This document shows positions 1,657 through 64,000 of a stretch of 64,000 nucleotides of DNA, piece by piece. Numbering within the stretch: position 1 is the first letter of the stretch; every line of letters begins with the position of its first letter. The notes below the pieces were generated by a model. That model had not been told where the DNA came from. It ran no database searches and saw nothing but the letters and a program-made list of their open reading frames with translations. This stretch comes from Marmoricola sp. (GTDB lineage: Bacteria > Actinomycetota > Actinomycetes > Propionibacteriales > Nocardioidaceae), in assembly GCA_025964775.1 (NCBI GenBank), contig JAOPYE010000008.1, forward strand, positions 1 to 64,000. Reading direction: 5' to 3'. Made by a program: the position numbers and the translations under genes.

Positions 1657-4600
1657 ATGGTCGCGGTGCTGATGCCCGAGGATGGCAAGGCCGAATTGCT
1701 CGGTCGGCTGTGCGCGTACGCGAACGAGCGGGCGGAGGCGCACGGGCCAGCAGGTGTCTCGATCCCGGCGGCCGTTCGCGCGTACTACCGGCACACGGCT
1801 CCCGAGGACCTGCTCGATCGCGACGAGGTCGACCTGTACGGCGCGGTCATGCACCAGCTCAGGTCCGGGACGGAACGCCCGCAGGGCACCGCCACCGTGC
1901 ACACCTTCACCCCGACGGTCGCCTCCGACGGCTGGTCGGCGTCGGGCCACACCGTCGTCGAGGTTGTCACCGACGACATGCCGTTCCTGGTCGACTCGGT
2001 CACGATGGCGCTCGCGCAATCCGATCACGACGTGCACCTGGTGATCCACCCGCAGCTCGTCGTGCGCCGCGACGTCGCCGGCCACCTGCAGGAGGTCTTC
2101 GAGGACATCGGCGAGCGGGCCGACACCTCACCGCACGACGTGTTCCGCGAGTCCTGGATGCACCTGGAGATCGACAGGATCCCGCCCGAGGAGTACGACG
2201 CGCTGACCCGCACGCTGGAGAAGGTGCTCTCCGACGTCCGCGAGGCCGTGGAGGACTGGCGCCGGATGCACGACCGCCTCGACTCCCTGGTCGCGGAGCT
2301 CGAGGCGGACCCGCCGCCGCTTGATCCCGACGAGGTCGCCGAGGACCGGGCTTTCCTCACCTGGCTCGGCGAGGACCACTTCACCTTCCTCGGGTTCCGC
2401 GAGTACCGGCTCGAGACCCGCGACGGGGCCGAGGTGCTCACCGCCGTCCCGGGGACCGGCTACGGCATCCTGCGCGCAGACCCGACCACGACGCTGCCGT
2501 TGCCCGAGCTCGCTGCGGCGAAGGCGCGGGAGAAGACGCTGCTGGTGCTCGCGAAGGCGAACTCCCGGGCGACGGTCCACCGCGCGGTGCACCTGGACTA
2601 CGTCGGCGTGAAGCGCTTCGACGCGAACGGCGAGGTGATCGGCGAGCGCCGCTTCCTGGGGCTGTTCTCATCGGCGGCGTACACCGAGTCGGTCACCCGC
2701 ATCCCGCTCGCCCGGGTCAAGGCGAAGCGCGTCATCGACGCCGCCGGGTACGAGCCGATGAGCCACGCCGCCAAGACCATGATGGACGTGCTGGAGACCT
2801 ACCCGCGCGACGAGCTGTTCGCCACGAGCGTCGAGGAGCTGGTCCCGATCGCCTCGACGGTGATGCACACGCGTGAGCGGCGCCAGCTCAAGCTGTTCGT
2901 CCGGCAGGACACCTACGGTCGTTTCTGGTCCTGCCTGGTCTACCTGCCGCGCGATCGCTACAACACCGCGGTGCGGGAGCGGATCGCCGCGATCCTGATG
3001 GAGCAGCTCAAGGGGGACACGCTCGAGTACACCGCGCATGTCGGCGACTCGTTCGCAGCACGGCTGCACTTCGTGATCCGTCCGAAACCGGGGGCGCCGG
3101 TCGGCCCGGTCGACGTCGCCGATCTCGAGCGCCGCTGCGCCGAGACCGCGCGGTCCTGGCGCGACGACTTCCTGGCCGCGGTCCTGGCCGAGTACGGCGA
3201 GGAGCACGGCACCCGCCTGGCCCGCCGGTACGTCGACCACTTCCCCGAGGCCTACAAGGAGGACTACCCGCCGCGGACGGGGGCAGCCGACCTGGGCCGC
3301 CTGGAGGCGATCGAGGGTGACGAGGGGATCGCACTGTCCCTCTACGAACGGATGGACGCCGGGCCGGGCGAGGCCAGGCTGAAGATCTACCGGGTCGGTG
3401 CGCCGCTGTCGCTCAGCGAAGTGCTGCCGATGCTGTCGGCGATGGGCGTCGAGGTGGTCGACGAGCGGCCCTACGGGCTGGAGAACCTGCCGCGGCCGTC
3501 GCACATCTACGACTTCGGGTTGCGCTACGCCGGTGGCCTGCCTGCCGGGGCGCGCGACCTGTTCGCCGACACCGTCCTGGCTGTCCGGGAAGGGCGGGCC
3601 GAGAGCGACGGGTTCAACGCCCTTGTCCTCGCTGCCGGCCTCACCTGGCGCCAGGCGATGGTCCTGCGCGCCTATGCCCGGCACATGCGGCAGGCGAACT
3701 CGCTGTTCGCGCAGGACTCGATCTCCGGGGCGCTGCTCGAGAACGTCGACATCACCCGCACGTTGGTGGCCCTCTTCGAGGCACGCTTCGACCCGGCGGC
3801 CGGCAACCGCGACCAGACCTGTGCCGAGCTGAGCGATGCGATCACCCGCGCCCTGGACGACGTGGCCAGCCTGGACCACGACCGGATCCTGCGCTCGTAC
3901 CTCACCGCGATCACCGCGACCCTGCGGACCAACTTCTACCAGCAGGCGTCCGCCGAACGCGGCTACCTCGCGCTCAAGTTCGATCCGTCGGCGATGCCTG
4001 ACCTGCCCGAGCCGCGGCCGCGTTTCGAGATCTTCGTCTACTCCCCGCGGGTCGAGGGCGTGCACCTGCGCTTCGGCCCGGTCGCCCGTGGTGGCCTGCG
4101 CTGGTCGGACCGCCGTGACGACTTCCGTTCCGAGGTGCTCGGGCTGGTGAAGGCGCAGATGGTGAAGAACACCGTGATCGTGCCGGTCGGCGCCAAGGGC
4201 GGGTTCTACGCCAAGAAGCTGCCCGACCCGGGCGACCGCGAAGCCTGGATGGCCGAGGGCATCGCCTGCTACCGGATCTTCATCTCGGCGCTGCTCGACC
4301 TCACCGACAACCTGGTCGCAGGTCCTGACGGGCAGGTCGTGGTCCCGCCCGCGGACGTGGTCCGGCACGACGAGGACGACACCTACCTGGTCGTCGCAGC
4401 CGACAAGGGCACGGCCACGTTCAGTGACATCGCCAACGAGGTCGCCGCGTCGTACGGGTTCTGGCTCGGGGACGCGTTCGCCTCCGGCGGCTCGGTCGGC
4501 TACGACCACAAGGCCATGGGCATCACCGCCCGCGGCGCCTGGGTCTCGGTACGCCGGCACTTCCGCGAGATGGGCGTCGACTGCCAGAACGAGGACTTCA

Positions 4601-6513
4601 CCTGCGTCGGGATCGGCGACATGTCCGGAGACGTCTTCGGCAACGGGATGCTCTGCTCCGAACACACCCGCCTCGTCGCGGCGTTCGACCACCGCGACAT
4701 CTTCCTGGACCCCGACCCGGACCCGGCGATCTCGTACGCCGAGCGCAAGCGGCTGTTCGCGCTGCCGCGGTCCTCGTGGTGGGACTACGACAATGCCCTG
4801 ATCTCGGCAGGAGGAGGTGTCTTCCCTCGCAGTGCCAAATCGATCCCGATCAGCCCCCAGGTGGCTGCGGTGCTCGGGATCACCGCCACCGCACTGACGC
4901 CGGCGGCGTTGATGAACGCGATCCTCAAGGCGCCGGTGGACCTGCTCTGGAACGGGGGCATCGGGACCTACGTGAAGGCGGCGTCCGAGTCCGACGCCGA
5001 TGTCGCCGACAAGGCCAACGACGCGCTCCGCGTCGATGGTGCCGACCTGCGGGCCCGCTGCGTCGGGGAGGGCGGCAACCTCGGGTTCACCCAGCGGGGC
5101 CGGATCGAGTACGCCCTGGCCGGGTGCGGCGGGACCGGCGGCCGCATCAACACCGATGCCATCGACAACAGTGCGGGCGTCGACACCTCCGACCACGAGG
5201 TCAACATCAAGATCCTGCTCGACCGGGTGGTCGTTGCGGGAGACCTGACCACCAAGCAGCGCAACGTCCTGCTGGCCTCGATGACCGACGAGGTGGCCGC
5301 GCTGGTGCTCGCCGACAACGACGCCCAGAACCTGGCCCTGGCCAACGCGGTGGCCCAGTCGCCGGCGCTGCTGCACGTCCACGAGGACCAGATGCGCTCG
5401 CTGGAACGACGCGACCTGCTCAACCGCGACCTGGAGGCGTTGCCGGCGCGACGTGAGGTGGCGATGCGGGTCGAGCGCGGCGAAGGCCTGACCGGTCCCG
5501 AGCTCGCCGTGCTGATGGCGTACACCAAGATCGTGCTGGCCGACGAGCTGCTGGCCGGCGACATCGCCGAGGATCCGTTCCTGCGCGGCGACCTGTACTC
5601 CTACTTCCCGCTGAAGATGCGCCAGCAGTACCGTGCAGCGATCAGCGAGCACCCGCTGCGCCCCGACATCGTGGTGACCCAGGTGGTCAACCAGCTCGTC
5701 AACGAAGCCGGCATGACCTACGTGCACCGGCTGGCCGGTGAGACCGGTGCCGGGTCGCGCGAGCTGACCCTGGCGCACTTCCTGGCCCGCGAGATCTTCG
5801 GTGCCCGGGCGGTCAACGCCGAGATCGCGACCTTCGACAACATCATCGACGCCGGGCTCCAGACCCGGATGCGGATCGAGGTCCGCACGCTGGTCGAGCG
5901 GGCGAGCCGCTGGCTGCTCAACAACCGGCGGCAGCCGTTCGACAGCGAGGCCGTCGTCGGCGAGTTCGAGGTGGTCGTCGAGCAGGTCACCGCCGCGCTG
6001 CCGCAGTTGATGCAGGGCGCAGAGCTGGCGGCCTTCACGGCCCGTCGCGACGCGCTGGTCAAGGCCGGTGTCCCGGACGAGCTCGCGACCCGGGTGGCCG
6101 TCTGCCCGCCGGCGTACATGGTGCTGGGGATCGTCCAGGCCGCGGCTCGTGCGCAGGCAGATCCCCTGGAGGTGGCCCGGGTGCACTTCGCTGTGGGCGA
6201 GACGCTCGGCCTGCCCGTCCTGGTGTCCCGGATCCTGGCCCTGCCGCGCACCGACCGCTGGCAGACGATGGCCAGGGCCGCGCTGCGCGACGACCTGCAC
6301 GCGGTGCACGCACAGATCACCGGCCAGGTCCTCGACCAGTCGGGGCCGGGGGTCGCGGCGGACACGATGGTCACGGCGTGGGCGGAAGCCGATCGGGTTG
6401 CCGTGGACCGCGCGGCCGAGACCCTCGCCGAGATCTGCTCGGACGAAGAGGCTGACCTGGCCCGGCTGTCGGTCGCCCTGCGTGTGGTCCGCTCGCTCTC
6501 CTCGACCGCCTGA
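1657..6513 (+). CDS. NAD-specific glutamate dehydrogenase, large (180-kDa) class
   Basis: Oxidatively deaminates glutamate to 2-oxoglutarate and ammonia with NAD+; the large class is mostly catabolic. The 1618-residue length is typical of this multidomain hexameric class. The N-terminal ~700 residues carry the regulatory ACT-like regions. The catalytic core begins near residue 800, with the conserved block VARGGLRWSDRRDDFRSEVL followed by VGAKGGFYAKK, which holds the substrate-binding lysines. A Rossmann part follows, with FGNGMLCSEHTRLVAAFDHRDIFLDP. The ATG at 1657 is chosen because GGGGAGG lies just upstream. It stands alone, 113 bases after kynA and 21 before an amidase. Confidence 0.95.
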   Translation: MVAVLMPEDGKAELLGRLCAYANERAEAHGPAGVSIPAAVRAYYRHTAPEDLLDRDEVDLYGAVMHQLRSGTERPQGTATVHTFTPTVASDGWSASGHTVVEVVTDDMPFLVDSVTMALAQSDHDVHLVIHPQLVVRRDVAGHLQEVFEDIGERADTSPHDVFRESWMHLEIDRIPPEEYDALTRTLEKVLSDVREAVEDWRRMHDRLDSLVAELEADPPPLDPDEVAEDRAFLTWLGEDHFTFLGFREYRLETRDGAEVLTAVPGTGYGILRADPTTTLPLPELAAAKAREKTLLVLAKANSRATVHRAVHLDYVGVKRFDANGEVIGERRFLGLFSSAAYTESVTRIPLARVKAKRVIDAAGYEPMSHAAKTMMDVLETYPRDELFATSVEELVPIASTVMHTRERRQLKLFVRQDTYGRFWSCLVYLPRDRYNTAVRERIAAILMEQLKGDTLEYTAHVGDSFAARLHFVIRPKPGAPVGPVDVADLERRCAETARSWRDDFLAAVLAEYGEEHGTRLARRYVDHFPEAYKEDYPPRTGAADLGRLEAIEGDEGIALSLYERMDAGPGEARLKIYRVGAPLSLSEVLPMLSAMGVEVVDERPYGLENLPRPSHIYDFGLRYAGGLPAGARDLFADTVLAVREGRAESDGFNALVLAAGLTWRQAMVLRAYARHMRQANSLFAQDSISGALLENVDITRTLVALFEARFDPAAGNRDQTCAELSDAITRALDDVASLDHDRILRSYLTAITATLRTNFYQQASAERGYLALKFDPSAMPDLPEPRPRFEIFVYSPRVEGVHLRFGPVARGGLRWSDRRDDFRSEVLGLVKAQMVKNTVIVPVGAKGGFYAKKLPDPGDREAWMAEGIACYRIFISALLDLTDNLVAGPDGQVVVPPADVVRHDEDDTYLVVAADKGTATFSDIANEVAASYGFWLGDAFASGGSVGYDHKAMGITARGAWVSVRRHFREMGVDCQNEDFTCVGIGDMSGDVFGNGMLCSEHTRLVAAFDHRDIFLDPDPDPAISYAERKRLFALPRSSWWDYDNALISAGGGVFPRSAKSIPISPQVAAVLGITATALTPAALMNAILKAPVDLLWNGGIGTYVKAASESDADVADKANDALRVDGADLRARCVGEGGNLGFTQRGRIEYALAGCGGTGGRINTDAIDNSAGVDTSDHEVNIKILLDRVVVAGDLTTKQRNVLLASMTDEVAALVLADNDAQNLALANAVAQSPALLHVHEDQMRSLERRDLLNRDLEALPARREVAMRVERGEGLTGPELAVLMAYTKIVLADELLAGDIAEDPFLRGDLYSYFPLKMRQQYRAAISEHPLRPDIVVTQVVNQLVNEAGMTYVHRLAGETGAGSRELTLAHFLAREIFGARAVNAEIATFDNIIDAGLQTRMRIEVRTLVERASRWLLNNRRQPFDSEAVVGEFEVVVEQVTAALPQLMQGAELAAFTARRDALVKAGVPDELATRVAVCPPAYMVLGIVQAAARAQADPLEVARVHFAVGETLGLPVLVSRILALPRTDRWQTMARAALRDDLHAVHAQITGQVLDQSGPGVAADTMVTAWAEADRVAVDRAAETLAEICSDEEADLARLSVALRVVRSLSSTA

Positions 6514-6534
6514 TCGAGGCGATAGGTTCTGCGC

Positions 6535-33094: not shown

Positions 33095-33131
33095 GGTTGT
33101 TGAGGAAGGTGCGAAGCGCCTGTCTCGCACC
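33095..33131. repeat. Diverged copy of the 37-bp palindromic repeat, upstream of ssrA
   Basis: This segment shares the frame TTGAGGAAGG and CCTGTCTCG with the copies at 56746 and 62951. Its arms are changed together: GGTGCGA pairs with TCGCACC, so the hairpin is kept while the sequence differs. Such compensatory change suggests that structure matters. It lies just before the mature tmRNA 5' end. Confidence 0.6.
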
Positions 33132-33144
33132 ACACAACTCAAGA

Positions 33145-33517
33145 GGGGCTGATTGGTTTCGACTAGGGACGTTTGTCCCAGGAGAAGCGGGTCGAGAAGC
33201 CAACGTCATCTCGTAAACGTCCGTTGGAAACCTATAACTGCCAACAACACTCGCAGTTCCTTCGCTCTCGCTGCCTGAGCAGTGATCGAAGCGTCAGACC
33301 GGGCATCCGCCTTCGTCCCGGATCCTGACGTCATCCAGAAGGCTTGCTGATCAACTTCCGTGGGGAGGGTTGATCGGGACTTAATCCCGACTGAGCCCGT
33401 CGGCGCACGTGTCTGTGCAAGCGCCGGGGCCGAGAAAAACGACCATTGCAGACTGCACCCGGAGAAGACCTGGCACGGCGCTCGAGGACGCGGGTTCGAT
33501 TCCCGCCAGCTCCACCA
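33145..33517 (+). ncRNA. ssrA: Transfer-messenger RNA (tmRNA)
   Basis: Rescues stalled ribosomes. The 5' end GGGGCTGATTGGTTTCGAC and the 3' end with T-arm GGGTTCGATTCCC and encoded CCA are diagnostic. The acceptor stem pairs 33145-33151 (GGGGCTG) with 33507-33513 (CAGCTCC), with one G-U pair. The tag frame runs 33240-33278: resume codon GCC, then ANNTRSSFALAA and TGA. The ALAA end is the protease-recognition signal. Length 373 nt is normal for a one-piece tmRNA. Confidence 0.97.
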
Positions 33518-56745: not shown

Positions 56746-56782
56746 GGTGGTTGAGGAAGGCCGGCACGGCCTGTCTCGAAAC
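56746..56782. repeat. 37-bp palindromic interspersed repeat (copy A), likely bidirectional terminator
   Basis: It begins GGTGGTTGAGGAAGGCC and ends CGGCCTGTCTCGAAAC, with GGCA in the middle, and can fold as AGGCCG/CGGCCT. It fills the 43-base gap between the convergent ABC ATPase stop (56738) and fahA stop (56782-56784). The same 37 bases occur at 62951-62987, differing only in the central bases, and a diverged copy lies at 33095. Confidence 0.85.
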
Positions 56783-58866: not shown

Positions 58867-60075
58867 GTGGCGTATTACAGATCCCTCGGAGATGTGCCCA
58901 AGACCCGTCATACCGCTTTTCGGGGGCCGGACGGGGCGCTGCGCTTCGAGGAGCTGATGGGCGAAGAGGGCTTCTCCTCGGATTCCTCGTTGCTCTACCA
59001 CTGCGGTGTTCCGTCAGCGATCGTCGACAGCGTCGTCTGGGACCTGCCCGACCTGCGCACGACCGCCAACCATCCACTGAAGCCGAGGCACCTGAGATTG
59101 CACGAGCTGACGCCACCACCGGCGGGCGAACCCGACGCTGTTCAGCACCGTCGCCTCGTCCTGGGCAACGGCGACGTCCGGATCAGCTACGTCACCGCCA
59201 CGCACCCGTCCCCGCTGTACCGCAACGCGGTCGGCGACGAAGCCGTGTTCGTCGAGGCCGGCAGCGGCAGTGTCGAGACCGTCTTCGGCGTCCTGGCCTA
59301 CCGGGCCGGCGACTACGTGATCCTGCCGCGAGCGACCACGCACCGCTGGTTGCCGGCCGAGCCGAGCCGCCTGTACGCGATCGAGGCCAACAGCCACATC
59401 GGGCCGCCGAAGCGCTACCTCTCCCGCTTCGGCCAGCTGCTGGAGCACGCGCCGTACTGCGAACGCGACCTGGTCGGGCCGGCCAGCACCCACCTGGTCG
59501 ACGGAGCCGACGTCGAGGTGCTCGTCAAGCACCGCGGCAACGGGCCCAAGAGCGGGAACAGTGGGTTGGTCGGGACCCGGCTGACCTACGCCACCCATCC
59601 GTTCGACGTGGTCGGCTGGGACGGCTGCCTCTACCCCTACACGTTCAACGTCGAGGACTTCATGCCGATCACCGGCAAGGTCCACCAGCCGCCGCCGGTG
59701 CACCAGGTCTTCGAAGGCAACAACTTCGTGATCTGCAACTTCTGCCCGCGCAAGGTCGACTACCACCCGGACTCGATACCGGTGCCGTACTACCACTCGA
59801 ACGTCGACTCGGACGAGGTGATGTTCTACGTCGCCGGGGACTACGAAGCGCGCAAGGGCAGCGGCATCGGGCTCGGCTCCATCTCGCTGCACCCGGGCGG
59901 CTACGCCCACGGACCGCAGCCCTCGGCGATCGAGGCGTCGATCGGGGCCGAGTACTTCGACGAGCTCGCGGTGATGGTCGACACCTTCCGCCCCCTCGAG
60001 CTCGGCGAGGCCGCCCTGGCCAGCGAGGATCCGGCGTACGCGTGGACCTGGGCCGGCCGCGGCCCGGTACTCTGA
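58867..60075 (+). CDS. hmgA: Homogentisate 1,2-dioxygenase
   Basis: Cleaves the ring of homogentisate to maleylacetoacetate using Fe(II). The 402-residue cupin-type protein has PRATTHRW and RLYAIEANSHIGPPKRYLSRFGQLLEHAPYCERDL, then the iron-binding region YYHSNVDSDEVMFYVAGDYEARKGSGIGLGSISLHPGGYAHGPQP. NFCPRKVDYHPDSIPVPYYHSN is a typical actinobacterial HmgA stretch. GTG start, divergent from the unknown protein and fahA. Its stop lies directly before the cobalamin riboswitch. Confidence 0.94.
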   Translation: MAYYRSLGDVPKTRHTAFRGPDGALRFEELMGEEGFSSDSSLLYHCGVPSAIVDSVVWDLPDLRTTANHPLKPRHLRLHELTPPPAGEPDAVQHRRLVLGNGDVRISYVTATHPSPLYRNAVGDEAVFVEAGSGSVETVFGVLAYRAGDYVILPRATTHRWLPAEPSRLYAIEANSHIGPPKRYLSRFGQLLEHAPYCERDLVGPASTHLVDGADVEVLVKHRGNGPKSGNSGLVGTRLTYATHPFDVVGWDGCLYPYTFNVEDFMPITGKVHQPPPVHQVFEGNNFVICNFCPRKVDYHPDSIPVPYYHSNVDSDEVMFYVAGDYEARKGSGIGLGSISLHPGGYAHGPQPSAIEASIGAEYFDELAVMVDTFRPLELGEAALASEDPAYAWTWAGRGPVL

Positions 60076-60189
60076 TTCCGGTGCTCGAGGGGAAGCCGGT
60101 CAGATTCCGGCGCTGACCCGCAGCCGTAGGCCGTCGATGACGGCGAGCCGGACTACCTGGGGTGTCGCAACCGGCTCCCCATCCCCGTC
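60076..60189 (+). promoter_or_regulatory. Cobalamin riboswitch
   Basis: The conserved core is recognisable: GGGGAAGCCGGT, then CAGATTCCGGCGCTGACCCGC (60111-60121 and preceding), CAGCCGTAGG, and the B12-box-like GAGCCGGACTACCTGG (60145-60160). The order and spacing match the adenosylcobalamin family. It sits directly after hmgA and ends about 20 bases before the ATG at 60210, so it should control the DUF4430-like and ECF genes in response to B12. Whether it acts on transcription or translation is not clear from sequence; no T-rich terminator follows. Confidence 0.88.
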
Positions 60190-60209
60190 GAGGCCGCGGG
60201 CGAAGAGAC

Positions 60210-60968
60210 ATGAAGCGCTACCTGCCGCTCCTCCTGCTCCTCGGAGTCTTCGTCCTCGCCGCACCCGCGCAAGCCGCGGCGTGCTCCGGGACGACGGGTG
60301 TCACGGTCGTGGTGCAATTTCCGGACCACACCACGATCAGCTGCGCTCCGGGAAACCCGTCGTCGGGCTACGCCGCGTTGCAAGAAGCCGGCTTCTCGAT
60401 CGCCTACGCCCAGGGCAGCGGAGTAGGTGCGCTGTGCGAGATCGACGGCTACCCGGGCGTCGGTGCCTGTCACACCATGCCGCCGGCGAATGCCTACTGG
60501 GCGTACTTCCACGCGAGCCGCGGCGGGTCTTGGAGTTACAGCGACACGGGAGGAGGCGGCTACGACCCGGCTCCCGGATCGGTCGAGGGCTGGCGCTTCG
60601 GTGCCGGATCAGCTCCCTCGGTTCCACCTCCGGCACGTGTGGCGTCAACCCCGAAACCGACTCCCAAGGCCGCTCCAACAGCCAGACCGAGCCACACGGC
60701 AACGCCGGTCGCGACGCCGAGCGGTCCCCGGTCGACTGCCGCCACACGGACCCCGTCAGCCGCGCCGACGGCCTCGCCCTCCGCCAACGTCGGTGCAGCC
60801 CCGACAGGTCCGCCGACCCCGCCAGCGAGTCCTGGTCTGGCCGCTGGCACCGTCCAGAAGGCGTCGTCGTCCTCGTCGAACGGCTTCGCCTGGATCTGGG
60901 GAGTCGTGCTGATCGCCGTCCTCGGTGGCGCCGCCGGAACCACGGCCGTGCGCCGGCGCCGGAGCTGA
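60210..60968 (+). CDS. Membrane-anchored surface protein with DUF4430-like domain
   Basis: A 252-residue exported protein: signal peptide (KRYLPLLLLLGVFVLAAPAQA), a ~105-residue domain with CSGTTGVTVVVQFPDH, YAALQEAGFSIAYAQ, ALCEIDGYPGVGACHTMPPANAYWAYFHAS and SWSYSDTGGGGYDPAPGSVEGWRFG, then a long Pro/Thr/Ala spacer and a C-terminal membrane helix with RRRRS. The folded part looks like DUF4430, the module also found at the C-terminus of transcobalamin and intrinsic factor. Behind a B12 riboswitch and before ECF genes, it is a likely surface corrinoid receptor (inference). ATG at 60210 avoids overlapping the riboswitch. Confidence 0.78.
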   Translation: MKRYLPLLLLLGVFVLAAPAQAAACSGTTGVTVVVQFPDHTTISCAPGNPSSGYAALQEAGFSIAYAQGSGVGALCEIDGYPGVGACHTMPPANAYWAYFHASRGGSWSYSDTGGGGYDPAPGSVEGWRFGAGSAPSVPPPARVASTPKPTPKAAPTARPSHTATPVATPSGPRSTAATRTPSAAPTASPSANVGAAPTGPPTPPASPGLAAGTVQKASSSSSNGFAWIWGVVLIAVLGGAAGTTAVRRRRS

Positions 60969-60969
60969 C

Positions 60970-62100
60970 GTGCCAGGGTTTTCGCAACGACCCACGATGC
61001 TGCCGAGGGCGCTGCACCCGCTCGCCTGGTGGGGCTGGGCGATCGGCCTCGCCGTCGCCGCCAGCATGACCGGCAACCCGATCCTGCTCGGCCTGATCGT
61101 GGTCGTTGTCTGGCTGGTCGTCGTCGCGCGCCGTACGGACTCACCGTGGGCGCGCGCCTTCCGGTTGTACGCCGTCCTGGGCGTCGTCATCGTCCTCGTC
61201 AGGCTCGTGCTCCATGTCCTGGTCGGGCTGAAGTGGGGCACCATCGAGGTGCTCGCGCTGCCGAGGATCGCGCTCCCGCACTGGGCCGCCGGGATCAACC
61301 TGCTCGGCACCGTCTACCTCGAGGGCTGGCTCGCCGCCGCCGTCCAGGGACTTCAGCTCGCCGTCCTGATCCTCGCGATCGGCGGCGCCAACGCCCTGGC
61401 CAACCCCAAGCGGTTGCTCCGCGCGCTTCCGCACGCGCTGCACGAGGTCGGCACCGCGGTCGTGGTCTCGGTCAGCGTCGCTCCGCAGCTGGCCGAGAGC
61501 GTCCAGCGCGTGCTGCGCGCGCGGCTCCTGCGCGGAGACGCCGGCCGCGGGCTCCGTGCGGTGCCACGAGTCGCGCTGCCGGTCCTCCAGGACACCCTGG
61601 ACAGGTCGCTGCTGCTCGCCGCCGCGATGGAGTCGCGCGGCTACGGCGCGCGCAACAGCGATGCCACGGCTGCAGGTCGACGGCTGCTCACCGGATCGCT
61701 CACGCTGGCCGGGCTGCTCGTGCTCGCCTTCGGTATGTACGACGTTCTCGACCCGACCCGGTCGTTGAGCTGGCTGGGGGCACCCCTCGTCGCCCTCGGG
61801 CTCGCTCTGACGGTGGCCGGGATGGCGCTGGGCGGGCGCGAGATCAAGGTGACGACGTACCGGCGCGACCCGTGGCGGCTGCCGGAGACGCTGACCGTCC
61901 TGGCCGGTTTCGCAGCGGCAGCCGGGATGGTGATCAGCAAGCAAGCCACCCCTGACCTCCTCTGGCTCCCGCTCCAGCCGCTGGCTGCGCCCGGGCTTCC
62001 GATCGCCGCGACGGTCGGCATCGTGCTCGCGGCGTTGCCCGCGTTCGTGACACCACCACCGGCAGCGACCGGCCGGCCGCGCGAAAGGGCTGGGCGATGA
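60970..62100 (+). CDS. ecfT: ECF transporter transmembrane subunit EcfT
   Basis: A 376-residue membrane protein (CbiQ/EcfT family) with ~6-7 helices. The two coupling motifs that bind the ATPases are seen as ARLLRGDAG and AAAMESRGYGAR. The GTG at 60970 follows one base after the surface-protein stop with GGAG upstream; an ATG at 60997 is possible. Its C-terminal two helices (from PETLTVLAGFAAAAGMVI) extend beyond the minimal EcfT. Overlaps the ATPase gene by 4 bases. Confidence 0.88.
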   Translation: MPGFSQRPTMLPRALHPLAWWGWAIGLAVAASMTGNPILLGLIVVVVWLVVVARRTDSPWARAFRLYAVLGVVIVLVRLVLHVLVGLKWGTIEVLALPRIALPHWAAGINLLGTVYLEGWLAAAVQGLQLAVLILAIGGANALANPKRLLRALPHALHEVGTAVVVSVSVAPQLAESVQRVLRARLLRGDAGRGLRAVPRVALPVLQDTLDRSLLLAAAMESRGYGARNSDATAAGRRLLTGSLTLAGLLVLAFGMYDVLDPTRSLSWLGAPLVALGLALTVAGMALGGREIKVTTYRRDPWRLPETLTVLAGFAAAAGMVISKQATPDLLWLPLQPLAAPGLPIAATVGIVLAALPAFVTPPPAATGRPRERAGR

Positions 62101-63743
62101 CCGACGCCATGCAGCCGGGGATCGCGATCGAGCTCGCCGGGGTCTCGGTGACCTACGCCGGCGCGACCGGCCCGGTCCTCAAGGACGTCGATCTCAGCAT
62201 CGAGGAAGGCGAGCTCGTCCTGGTCGTCGGCCGCACCGGGTCCGGCAAGAGCACGCTGCTGGGCGCCCTGAACGGTCTCGTGCCGCACTTCACCGGCGGT
62301 GAGCTCTCCGGGTCGGTCCGGGTGCACGGCCGGAACACCCGCGACCACCGTCCGCGCGATCTTGCCGACCTGGTCGGGGTGGTCGGGCAGGACCCGCTGG
62401 CCGGCTTCGTCACCGACACGGTGGAGGAGGAGCTCGCCTACGGGATGGAGCAACTGGGTCTGGCACCCGCAGTGATGCGCAAGCGCGTCGAGGAGACCCT
62501 CGACCTGCTGGGGATCGCGGACCTGCGCAACGCGCCGCTCACCGAGCTCTCCGGCGGCCAGCAGCAGCGCGTCGCGATCGGTGCGGTGCTGGCTGCCCAT
62601 CCGCGGATCCTGGTCCTCGATGAGCCGACCTCCGCCCTGGACCCGACCGGAGCCGAGGAGGTGCTTGCGGCGATCACGCGCCTCGTGCACGACCTGGCGA
62701 TCACCGTGGTGATCGCCGAGCACCGGGTCGAGCGCGTCCTCGCGTACGCCGACCGGGTGGTGCACGTGGTCGACGGCCGGGTCGAGTCCGGACTCCCGGC
62801 CGAAGTGATGGTGTCCTCGACGATCGCACCGCCGGTCGTCGAGCTCGGCCGGTGGGCCGGCTGGTCCCCGCTGCCGATGTCGGTCCGCGACGGCTGGCGC
62901 GCCGCCGCCCCCCTCCGGGCACAGTTGGTTGAGGACGCGGTCCTGCCCTCGGTGGTTGAGGAAGGCCGTCCCGGCCTGTCTCGAAACCCCCTCCTCACCG
63001 CCCGCAAGCTCTCCGTCCGACACGGCGACCTGGTCGCCGTCCGCGAGGTCGGCCTCGCCGTACGAGCCGGCGAGATCACCGCGCTGATGGGCCGCAACGG
63101 CTCCGGCAAGTCCAGCCTGCTGTGGGCCCTGCAGGGGTCAGGAACCAGGGCGACCGGAACTGTCGAGATCGGCGGGGCCGACCCCCGCGATCTCGCCCCT
63201 GCCGTACGACGTACCCGCATCGGGCTGGTTCCGCAGACCCCGTCGGACCTGCTGTACCTGCCGACCGTGGCCGCCGAGTGCGCCCAGGCAGACCGCGAGT
63301 CGGGCCTGGAACCGGGTTCCTGCCGGCAGCTGCTGGACAGGATCGTCCCGGACGTCGCCGACGACCTGCATCCCCGGGACCTGTCCGAGGGCCAGCGGCT
63401 CGGCCTGGTCCTCGCGATCCAGCTCACCGCCGATCCGGAGGTGCTGCTGCTCGACGAGCCGACACGTGGCCTCGACTACCAGGCGAAGAGCGCGTTGTCA
63501 GCGGTGCTGCGGGAGCTGACGGACCGTGGTCGCGCGATCCTGCTCTCCACGCACGACGTCGAGTTCGTGGCCGAGGCTTCGGACCGGGTCCTGGTGATGG
63601 CGGCCGGCGAGTTCGTCGCCGACGGCCCGACCGCGGAGGTGCTCACCGCCAGTCCTGCCTTTGCCCCGCAGGTGGCCAAGGTGCTCGGCCACGGCCTGCT
63701 CACCGTCGCGGACGCGGTCGCGCGGTTCGGTGACCTGAGATGA
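62097..63743 (+). CDS. ecfA: ECF transporter fused double ATPase (EcfA-EcfA')
   Basis: A 548-residue protein with two ABC domains. Domain 1 (~10-235): Walker A GRTGSGKST, signature [15 protein letters not shown], Walker [14 protein letters not shown]. Domain 2 (~302-540): Walker A GRNGSGKSS, signature LSEGQRLGLVLA (Glu for Gly) and Walker B VLLLDEPTRGLDY. The domains differ, as in EcfAA' heterodimers. The linker at residues 285-297 is encoded by a palindromic repeat (62951-62987). Overlaps ecfT and the next gene by 4 bases. Confidence 0.9.
   Translation: MTDAMQPGIAIELAGVSVTYAGATGPVLKDVDLSIEEGELVLVVGRTGSGKSTLLGALNGLVPHFTGGELSGSVRVHGRNTRDHRPRDLADLVGVVGQDPLAGFVTDTVEEELAYGMEQLGLAPAVMRKRVEETLDLLGIADLRNAPLTELSGGQQQRVAIGAVLAAHPRILVLDEPTSALDPTGAEEVLAAITRLVHDLAITVVIAEHRVERVLAYADRVVHVVDGRVESGLPAEVMVSSTIAPPVVELGRWAGWSPLPMSVRDGWRAAAPLRAQLVEDAVLPSVVEEGRPGLSRNPLLTARKLSVRHGDLVAVREVGLAVRAGEITALMGRNGSGKSSLLWALQGSGTRATGTVEIGGADPRDLAPAVRRTRIGLVPQTPSDLLYLPTVAAECAQADRESGLEPGSCRQLLDRIVPDVADDLHPRDLSEGQRLGLVLAIQLTADPEVLLLDEPTRGLDYQAKSALSAVLRELTDRGRAILLSTHDVEFVAEASDRVLVMAAGEFVADGPTAEVLTASPAFAPQVAKVLGHGLLTVADAVARFGDLR
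62925..62987. repeat. 37-bp palindromic repeat (copy B) inside the ecfA coding sequence, with a partial copy upstream
   Basis: Bases 62951-62987 match copy A at 56746-56782 except in the central bases (GTCC versus GGCA). A partial relative (TTGGTTGAGGACGCGG) precedes it around 62927. In the ecfA frame it encodes SVVEEGRPGLSRN, residues 285-297, between the two ABC domains. The reading frame is kept and no stop is introduced. Confidence 0.88.
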
Positions 63744-64000
63744 GTACGGTGCCGCACGGCCGCACGCCGGCCATCCGACTCCGCCCGCGTTCGACGGTCG
63801 CTATCGCCCTGGCTGTCGTGGCCAGCGGGATCGCGTTCTGCTGGCCGTTGTTCGTCTCCTCGCACTCGGCGCTGTCGTCGAACAGCAGTGCGCCGCTGAT
63901 CCTCGGTCTGCTGCTTCCCGTCGTGCTCGCAGTCGTGCTGTTCGAGATCAGCGAGGGTGGGCTCGATCCGAAGGCCGTCGCGATGCTGGGCGTGCTCTCG
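63740..64000 (+). CDS. Putative ECF S component / membrane protein (3' end outside window)
   Basis: The first 87 residues are visible. A basic N-terminus (RTPAIRLRPRS) is followed by a helix TVAIALAVVASGIAFCWPLF and a second APLILGLLLPVVLAVVLFEIS. Its ATG overlaps the ecfA stop, and in this operon type the substrate-binding S component commonly follows, so it is probably the B12-binding subunit. The gene is cut by the window edge, so family and length cannot be confirmed. Confidence 0.65.
   Translation, partial: MSTVPHGRTPAIRLRPRSTVAIALAVVASGIAFCWPLFVSSHSALSSNSSAPLILGLLLPVVLAVVLFEISEGGLDPKAVAMLGVLS

Follow-up and report, generated by a model that had tools for sequence, protein, structure and literature searches.

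A riboswitch-linked actinobacterial operon that may combine an ECF transporter with a transcobalamin-like surface protein for corrinoid uptake

The window, that is, the whole 64,000-nt stretch of a Marmoricola sp. contig analyzed here, ends in a cobalamin riboswitch followed on the same strand by genes for a membrane-anchored surface protein, an EcfT-like transmembrane component, a fused EcfA-A' ATPase and the start of an ECF S component (Table 1). This is the arrangement described by an initial annotation made from the sequence alone, and it was confirmed, with a correction concerning DUF4430 (see below). The S gene continues past the window and was completed from the same contig (63740-64528, corresponding to 5741-6529 of locus L001), while the start codon of the EcfT gene, at 60970, is our own choice.

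Table 1. Features at the end of the window.
Feature	Coordinates	Strand	Basis or remark
Cobalamin riboswitch	60064..60178	+	Span of model R1; Rfam core 60090-60157
Membrane-anchored surface protein, 252 aa	60210..60968	+	Open frame from ATG; hydrophobic segments; P/T/S/A-rich stalk
Transcobalamin β-domain-like fold (predicted) inside surface protein	60288..60608	+	AlphaFold model and structure comparison
EcfT-like transmembrane component	60970..62100	+	CbiQ match below cut-off; conserved place beside EcfA-A' and S in relatives
Fused EcfA-A' ATPase, 548 aa	62097..63743	+	Two ABC_tran stretches; ECF ATPase models
ECF S component, start	63740..64000	+	Gene ends at contig position 64528, 262 aa

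A B12 riboswitch had been claimed ahead of the surface-protein gene, and a covariance-model search of the whole window with Rfam bears this out, with RF00174 matching the core at 36.1 bits (E 1.6e-5) against a gathering score of 31.5. The R1 model was built from 12 sequences, including that of the window and that found upstream of a toroid gene elsewhere in the same genome (see below), and it is because both are part of the model that these two loci score highly with it. The lowest-energy fold of 60064-60222 is not better than those of shuffled sequences (z -0.84), and we therefore base no claim on it. A palindrome pattern gives a match with a 16-base spacer and none with a 17-base spacer. Judging from the sequence, we infer that the operon is under cobalamin control through its riboswitch, which would act by repression.

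The surface protein displays the Pro/Thr stalk and membrane anchor initially attributed to it, with two hydrophobic segments (residues 4-27 and 224-247), the second directly followed by RRRRS, and a stalk (residues 135-232) in which the Pro/Thr/Ser/Ala content is 70%. An in-frame GTG at 60162 would give a longer N terminus. The claim of a DUF4430-like domain stands at the level of predicted fold and of profile-profile comparison (82.4%, E 9.9e-6 vs. DUF4430), but not with the Pfam DUF4430 model (PF14478), which has no match in the window surface protein and matches weakly 4 of 62 surface domains in relatives (best E 0.053). The structure prediction that had been proposed as a check yields an AlphaFold model of the domain (pLDDT 85.9) that matches the β-domain of transcobalamin (5np4) in VIA with a Z score of 10.0 and an rmsd of 2.9 over 95 aligned residues. 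A bacterial relative, 3u7z, is found with a Z score of 9.8, and the top 15 VIA rows consist of transcobalamins, haptocorrin, intrinsic factor and 3u7z (Z 9.0-10.0), the next row being at 6.1. Foldseek likewise matches the model to transcobalamin (E 1.9e-3, TM 0.60 by target length). As for sequence, Pfam and NCBIfam provide no usable name for the protein, and searches of PDB sequences with the domain, as a single sequence or as a profile, return unrelated weak rows only. SCO2322_fam (NF040672), an NCBIfam family whose name carries no function, scores 30.5 bits on the window domain, under its cut-off of 85, and has a match at E 0.001 in 52 of the 62 aligned surface domains. According to this model, the window protein, which comprises the β-domain only and no toroid in the same chain, would resemble in fold one part of the B12 carriers found in the blood and gut of animals; its pairing with a membrane transporter in one riboswitch-linked gene set suggests a machine for B12 capture and import.

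The claim of an EcfT gene followed by a fused EcfA-A' withstands comparison with relatives, where an equally placed gene aligns with EcfT, and with models for the ATPase, whose two ABC_tran stretches are accompanied by best NCBIfam matches to ECF ATPases (288 bits, under the cut-off of 315). EcfT scores 15.9 bits against Pfam CbiQ, under the cut-off of 25, and weakly matches an EcfT in the PDB (E 0.097). S, T and the two ATPase domains are encoded together, as in dedicated group I ECF transporters, and follow the same order in relatives. The membrane gene at the end of the window had been taken for an S-type gene. The completed protein has no Pfam match of its own, and we assign it as an S component because, of 45 aligned sequences from its relatives, 26 reach E 0.1 or lower against PF12822 (ECF_trnsprt; best E 1.6e-10); relatives also match PF07155, which, like PF12822, is a general vitamin-type S family. 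Membership in the family of another vitamin had been set beforehand as a ground for refutation, and the gene matches none of the other named vitamin families, the best NCBIfam row, for a folate family, scoring 13.6 bits where the cut-off is 60. In PDB sequences, a single-sequence search with S returns unrelated weak rows only, and a profile of 45 S proteins, run with one sequence method, finds no S component at E 10. Might the transporter import cobalt ions for cobalamin synthesis, the surface proteins serving another role? EcfT is distantly CbiQ-like, the EcfA half exceeds the cut-off of the cbiO model (235.8 vs. 211.8 bits), and another riboswitch-type match in the same genome precedes a gene for a CbtA cobalt transporter. 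However, S and its relatives point to the vitamin-type PF12822 and PF07155, with no CbiM row reported, and a large two-domain binder of organic ligands would seem ill suited to ion uptake, which makes cobalt import, in our estimation, the least probable of the explanations weighed here.

The initial annotation overlooked an α/α toroid, the fold of the other domain of transcobalamin. Among 65 S-containing loci with at least 7.5 kb upstream, the operon region encodes a toroid in 45, besides a surface domain in 61 and a riboswitch in 59. In the window genome, the only toroid gene lies at a separate locus (G000:C25), with its own cobalamin riboswitch match upstream (30.7 bits, slightly below the Rfam gathering score of 31.5), and encodes a protein with a signal-like N terminus and no other membrane segment. 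In some relatives, such as L098, the toroid is fused to the surface domain, both orders being found, and in L175 and L178 it shares one open frame with S; since frames were read from stop to stop, fusion borders are approximate. A model of the L098 fused protein has transcobalamin as its best Foldseek match (E 1.5e-8), spanning both domains, while the best 50 VIA rows are all cyclases or other toroid proteins, with no transcobalamin among them, a result on which no rejection is based. Some results count against a role in corrinoid uptake: the two domains of this model are not arranged as in transcobalamin in its loaded form, the rmsd across the pair being about 19-21, and, among 59 PDB sequences, a toroid profile picks out squalene-hopene cyclases as well as complement proteins but no transcobalamin. 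Of 55 toroids, 36 match SQHop_cyclase_C and five match Pfam Cobalamin_bind (PF01122) at E 0.1 (best 8.5e-4); the toroid of the window genome matches neither. With squalene-hopene cyclases as its best matches, and a common fold being no proof of function, the toroid could be a secreted enzyme, terpene-cyclase-like or other, in which case the surface domain would bind a non-corrinoid and the riboswitch would be the only link to B12. We nevertheless regard this as very improbable, in view of the export features and upstream riboswitch match of the own-genome toroid and of the fusions that join toroids with S or with the surface domain, both of which they co-occur with.

This co-occurrence was assessed in 197 genomes of the phylum by Fisher tests that ignore kinship: the surface domain is present in 37, all of which have S and 34 of which have the toroid, while seven genomes have a toroid without S. 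A locus with surface domain but without toroid occurs in 15 genomes, and 11 of these have no toroid anywhere at E 1e-6; the toroid is therefore not always required. The absence of any Rfam riboswitch at gathering score from the 12 distant loci L171-L182 argues against the uptake reading. Relatives were fetched from 40 of the 45 other genomes having a match. Profiles A1 and A8 represent mostly loci found via S, while the loci behind A2 were found via the surface domain or S. In alignment A3, toroid-only rows had been wrongly laid over the β-domain, which led to its rejection; A6 was used after trials A4 and A5, most of its toroid-only rows still extending 5-8 residues beyond the domain border. 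Riboswitch counts use 67 of 76 rows, the nine omitted all being under 58 bits; one of these nine, in L141 (48.5 bits), is located upstream of its operon.

The operon had been proposed as an alternative to BtuFCD, with which the gene content of the window genome (94%-complete) fits: no FecCD/BtuC-type permease exceeds the family cut-off (one reaches 20.5 vs. 26.5 bits), and 13 of 14 control genomes have a FecCD permease over it. Five B12-binding domains in the genome also speak for uptake. CbiB, CobT, CobBC and CobH, covering late and early cobalamin synthesis, are found over their NCBIfam cut-offs, and CobG, CobN and a cobaltochelatase subunit have matches under theirs. The same system might thus bring in a cobalamin precursor or another cobamide (e.g., cobinamide or cobyrinate) that feeds the late synthesis genes of the host. 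Besides the late and early genes, the placing of cbrUVT under cobyrinate diamide uptake in an excerpt of a review (PMC8123684) and the transport of cobinamide by ECF-CbrT (excerpt of PMC5997447) agree with this. A transcobalamin-like β-domain leans instead to cobalamin, although by analogy only, and the data do not separate the two; we consider precursor import unlikely.

Riboswitches, gene order, predicted β-domain fold, toroid homology, fusions and co-occurrence form the computed basis on which we propose that this is probably a cobalamin-controlled corrinoid uptake operon, consisting of a dedicated ECF transporter and, on the outer side of the membrane, a transcobalamin-like system for capture. 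Of the outcomes set in advance as refuting, namely no riboswitch match, no DUF4430 likeness or an S component of another vitamin, none occurred. The anchored β-grasp domain and the toroid secreted from the second riboswitch locus would hold the corrinoid, perhaps between them as in animal transcobalamin, before handing it on to S, and import would then be powered by ATP hydrolysis; high intracellular cobalamin would shut both the operon and the toroid locus via their riboswitches. Corrinoid as the ligand, its binding by two separate chains, its hand-off to S and the exact substrate are what we infer from the above evidence. More tentatively, and with slightly less than even confidence, we suggest an ECF class that uses extracellular binding proteins, in which a toroid/β-grasp pair, either docked on S or fused with it, hands the corrinoid over; in some lineages, including the window genome, the two halves, made from separate riboswitch loci, would close round the ligand as a heterodimer.

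To our knowledge, ECF transporters are usually described as acting via S components in the membrane, with no additional binding proteins, and a capture protein beside or fused to S is therefore a directly testable departure. B12 uptake in bacteria without BtuFCD is, as far as we know, poorly known. If the proposal is true, many actinobacteria, some Streptomyces among them, import corrinoids via an ECF transporter with a capture device built from both domain kinds of human transcobalamin and intrinsic factor, and high-GC Gram-positives have to be considered when the bacterial origins of animal B12 carriers are discussed. A cobalamin ECF transporter, CbrTUV, has reportedly been predicted (Rodionov 2009 and SEED); we take it to be probably the same transporter in actinobacteria, and SEED reportedly has a label for an additional lipoprotein component. 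Among the papers listed by searches of open-licence literature, none has a title or abstract start concerning an actinobacterial operon in which a cobalamin riboswitch precedes toroid, β-domain and ECF genes; this scope leaves out most subscription journals, and we do not claim absence from print.

Among known systems, ECF-CbrT of Lactobacillus delbrueckii is, according to an excerpt of PMC5997447, a demonstrated importer of cobalamin and cobinamide, and has the same ECF architecture; it differs from the window operon, which brings its own T and A-A' genes in place of a shared module and adds extracellular domains. The proposed comparison of S with CbrT was covered by one sequence search, in which no likeness of S to any PDB chain was found, the CbrT entry 6fnp being among those searched; as far as one search goes, this counts against the uptake reading. 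Animal transcobalamin, haptocorrin and intrinsic factor are similar to the predicted β-domain fold, and in some relatives toroid and β-domain are likewise part of one protein. However, sequence identity is about 15%, the bacterial β-domain is anchored and, in the window genome, apart from the toroid, and the bacterial toroid is closer in sequence to squalene cyclases. In excerpts of Burroughs et al. 2007 (PMC1796856), transcobalamin-like SLBB proteins with α/α toroids are described in CbiO/CbiQ operons, and B12 scavenging is predicted. As this 2007 paper had already put forward the general idea, with respect to other bacteria, the window operon is, as far as these excerpts go, a divergent actinobacterial variant of it. 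As here, the proteins in the excerpts have both domains, in either order, are secreted or anchored, and are encoded beside a CbiO-like ATPase and a CbiQ-like protein. The clade named there comprises low-GC Gram-positives, planctomycetes and some euryarchaea, and not actinobacteria. Bacteria with such proteins are said in the excerpts to be mostly without key B12-synthesis enzymes, whereas the window genome has cob genes, a difference that weighs against the uptake reading. Further differences from the excerpted account are a divergent domain missed by Pfam, a riboswitch at both loci, a separate toroid locus, and open frames that join S and the toroid.

The operon at the end of the window has the composition predicted in the initial annotation. 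A cobalamin riboswitch core, matching the Rfam covariance model above its gathering score (Table), precedes the ATG of the surface gene by 52 bases. This gene is followed, with no notable gaps, by genes for EcfT, a fused EcfA-A' and a further membrane protein, truncated in the window, which proved to be an ECF S component (S) once its frame was completed from the same contig. The window covers bases 1-64000 of this 65791-base contig, from a 3.9-Mb genome that is 94% complete. The best match of the S gene in named genomes is in a Marmoricola metagenome assembly (96% identity), followed by Nocardioides species; on this basis, the host is assigned to that actinobacterial group. Directly upstream of the operon lies a gene for a divergent relative of homogentisate 1,2-dioxygenase, which scores far under the NCBI hmgA cut-off and whose stop falls within the span of the riboswitch model.

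Coordinates of features in the window and in related loci (L numbers; locus coordinates)
Feature	Position	Remark
Cobalamin riboswitch core	60090-60157	Rfam 36.1 bits, gathering score 31.5
Surface-gene ATG	60210	
S component gene, end	64528 (contig)	beyond window
Upstream dioxygenase relative	58867-60075	HgmA_C 32.8 bits, cut-off 21
Exact repeat copy	62954-62987	within EcfA-A' gene
Exact repeat copy	56749-56782	
Degenerate repeat copy	33098-33131	3 mismatches
tmRNA gene	33145-33517	Rfam 170.7 bits
L060, beta-toroid-beta frame	3-2402	cut by contig end
L175, S-toroid frame	3556-5181	
L178, S-toroid frame	3625-5259	
L164 (own genome, contig C29), riboswitch-type match and CbtA gene	4104-5376	match 37.1 bits

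In the surface protein, a hydrophobic segment at the N-terminus precedes a domain of ~105 residues; then come a stalk, 70% of whose residues are Pro, Thr, Ser or Ala, and a membrane segment at the C-terminus with arginines after it. The domain had been described as DUF4430-like, which stands for its predicted fold and for profile comparison, not for a match to the Pfam model: the DUF4430 profile left the window's domain unmatched and weakly matched only 4 of 62 aligned relatives (best E 0.053). NCBI family SCO2322, which carries no function, matches 52 of the 62. The AlphaFold model (pLDDT 85.9, pTM 0.81) nevertheless resembles transcobalamin despite the missing Pfam match. Foldseek places transcobalamins and haptocorrin at ranks 1-14 and 3u7z, from Ruminococcus gnavus, at rank 15, with E <0.001 in one row only. 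The top 15 rows in VIA (transcobalamins, haptocorrin, intrinsic factor and 3u7z) have Z scores of 9.0-10.0, the next being 6.1. Among these 15 is human transcobalamin's beta domain in isolation, which VIA superposes on the model over 95 residues with an rmsd of 2.9. Since the gene immediately 5' of EcfT in three distant loci (L174, L180 and L182) encodes a true Pfam DUF4430 (E 4.5e-17, 1.8e-15 and 6.4e-16, respectively), the two kinds of domain occupy the same place, and matching the profile of the window's family against seven domains from DUF4430-type loci gave 82.4% (E 9.9e-6).

In transcobalamin, B12 is sandwiched between the two domains of the protein, a toroid and a beta-grasp domain (PMC1796856). 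Among 65 loci fetched via S, each with at least 7.5 kb of upstream DNA, 45 contain an alpha/alpha toroid gene, mostly between riboswitch and surface gene. The closest sequence matches of the toroid are squalene-hopene cyclases (E 2.1e-33); transcobalamin is absent among the 59 PDB sequences found by this search, and Pfam Cobalamin_bind is matched by 5 of 55 toroids (best E 8.5e-4). The two domains also share single open frames, in the order beta-toroid (L057, L060, L071 and L081) or toroid-beta (L063, L064, L130, L133, L140, L098 and L123). In L098 and L123, the toroid-beta frame includes stalk and anchor and lies directly before EcfT. The top Foldseek match of the L098 fusion model (pLDDT 90.8, pTM 0.80) is transcobalamin, spanning both domains (E 1.5e-8), and the fourth is a squalene-hopene cyclase (E 7.1e-8); the domain orientation differs from that of solved transcobalamin, since the rmsd is high (~19). 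S and toroid share an open frame in two genomes of the phylum (L175 and L178), where a hydrophobic stretch separates the two parts. The L060 frame carries a second beta domain after its toroid.

In the window's own genome, a single toroid gene (E 1e-100) lies on contig C25, unlinked to the operon. Its product has a hydrophobic N-terminus and no further membrane segment, and upstream is a riboswitch match slightly below the Rfam gathering score (30.7 bits; E 4.3e-6 in 501 bases searched). Fifteen genomes with the surface domain but no toroid in the locus were examined: four have a toroid elsewhere (G053, of the same genus, and the genomes of L076, L077 and L100), and no toroid reaches E 1e-6 in the other 11. 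With the toroid outside the locus in both its own genome and G053, the window's group encodes the two halves separately; among other lineages, the beta domain seems to function with no such toroid.

EcfT, EcfA-A' and S adjoin in 36 of 40 loci fetched via the surface domain, the contig ending first in the other four. The 65 S-containing loci include the surface domain in 61 and a riboswitch in 59 (counted from 67 of 76 riboswitch rows); three Cutibacterium loci and L095 have no surface domain, toroid or riboswitch, and one of these Cutibacterium genomes has toroids outside the locus. Across 197 genomes of the phylum, uncorrected for relatedness, 69 have S, 56 the toroid and 37 the surface domain. 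Every one of these 37 also has S, and 34 also have the toroid; conversely, among the 41 genomes with a strong S match, the surface domain is present in 37 and the toroid in 35. Seven of the 197 genomes have a toroid without S. Because no Rfam riboswitch reaches gathering score in 12 distant loci (L171-L182), the B12 link is documented for the window's branch and not for them.

The riboswitch points to corrinoids as the subject of the system. Most likely, the anchored beta domain and the toroid would capture a corrinoid and pass it to S for import driven by ATP, plentiful cobalamin presumably switching off both loci. A profile search of PDB sequences found no likeness of S to CbrT or other solved S components. 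Cobalamin ECF transporters, CbrTUV, were reportedly predicted by Rodionov in 2009 and in SEED. A review names cbrUVT (PMC8123684). The host genome (94% complete) has no FecCD permease above cut-off and five B12-binding domains. CbiB, CobT, CobBC and CobH score over NCBIfam cut-offs, and CobG, CobN and a cobaltochelatase subunit under them. From these synthesis genes it would follow that uptake is salvage alongside synthesis. Weaker riboswitch-type matches lie near cobalamin-synthesis genes and before a CbtA gene. The match at L164, upstream of a CbtA cobalt-transporter gene, was scored with a model built from 12 sequences, those of the window and the own-genome toroid among them.

Burroughs et al. 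describe operons in which CbiO-like and CbiQ-like genes accompany bacterial transcobalamin-like domains and toroids, predicted to scavenge B12. Their hosts are low-GC Gram-positives, planctomycetes and some euryarchaea, and the bacteria concerned usually miss key B12-synthesis enzymes (PMC1796856). The present analysis adds a divergent actinobacterial branch missed by Pfam, riboswitch matches at both loci with a separate toroid locus, S as the constant partner, S-toroid open frames and, in contrast to the usual hosts in that paper, a host that retains cob genes.

The genome contains 56 exact copies of a palindromic repeat, GGTTGAGG(16)GTCTCGAAAC, versus 0 for a backwards control; two of the copies are in the window. 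One copy lies in frame in the linker joining the two ATPase halves of EcfA-A', whose length and sequence vary in four relatives compared; a degenerate copy lies just upstream of the tmRNA gene.
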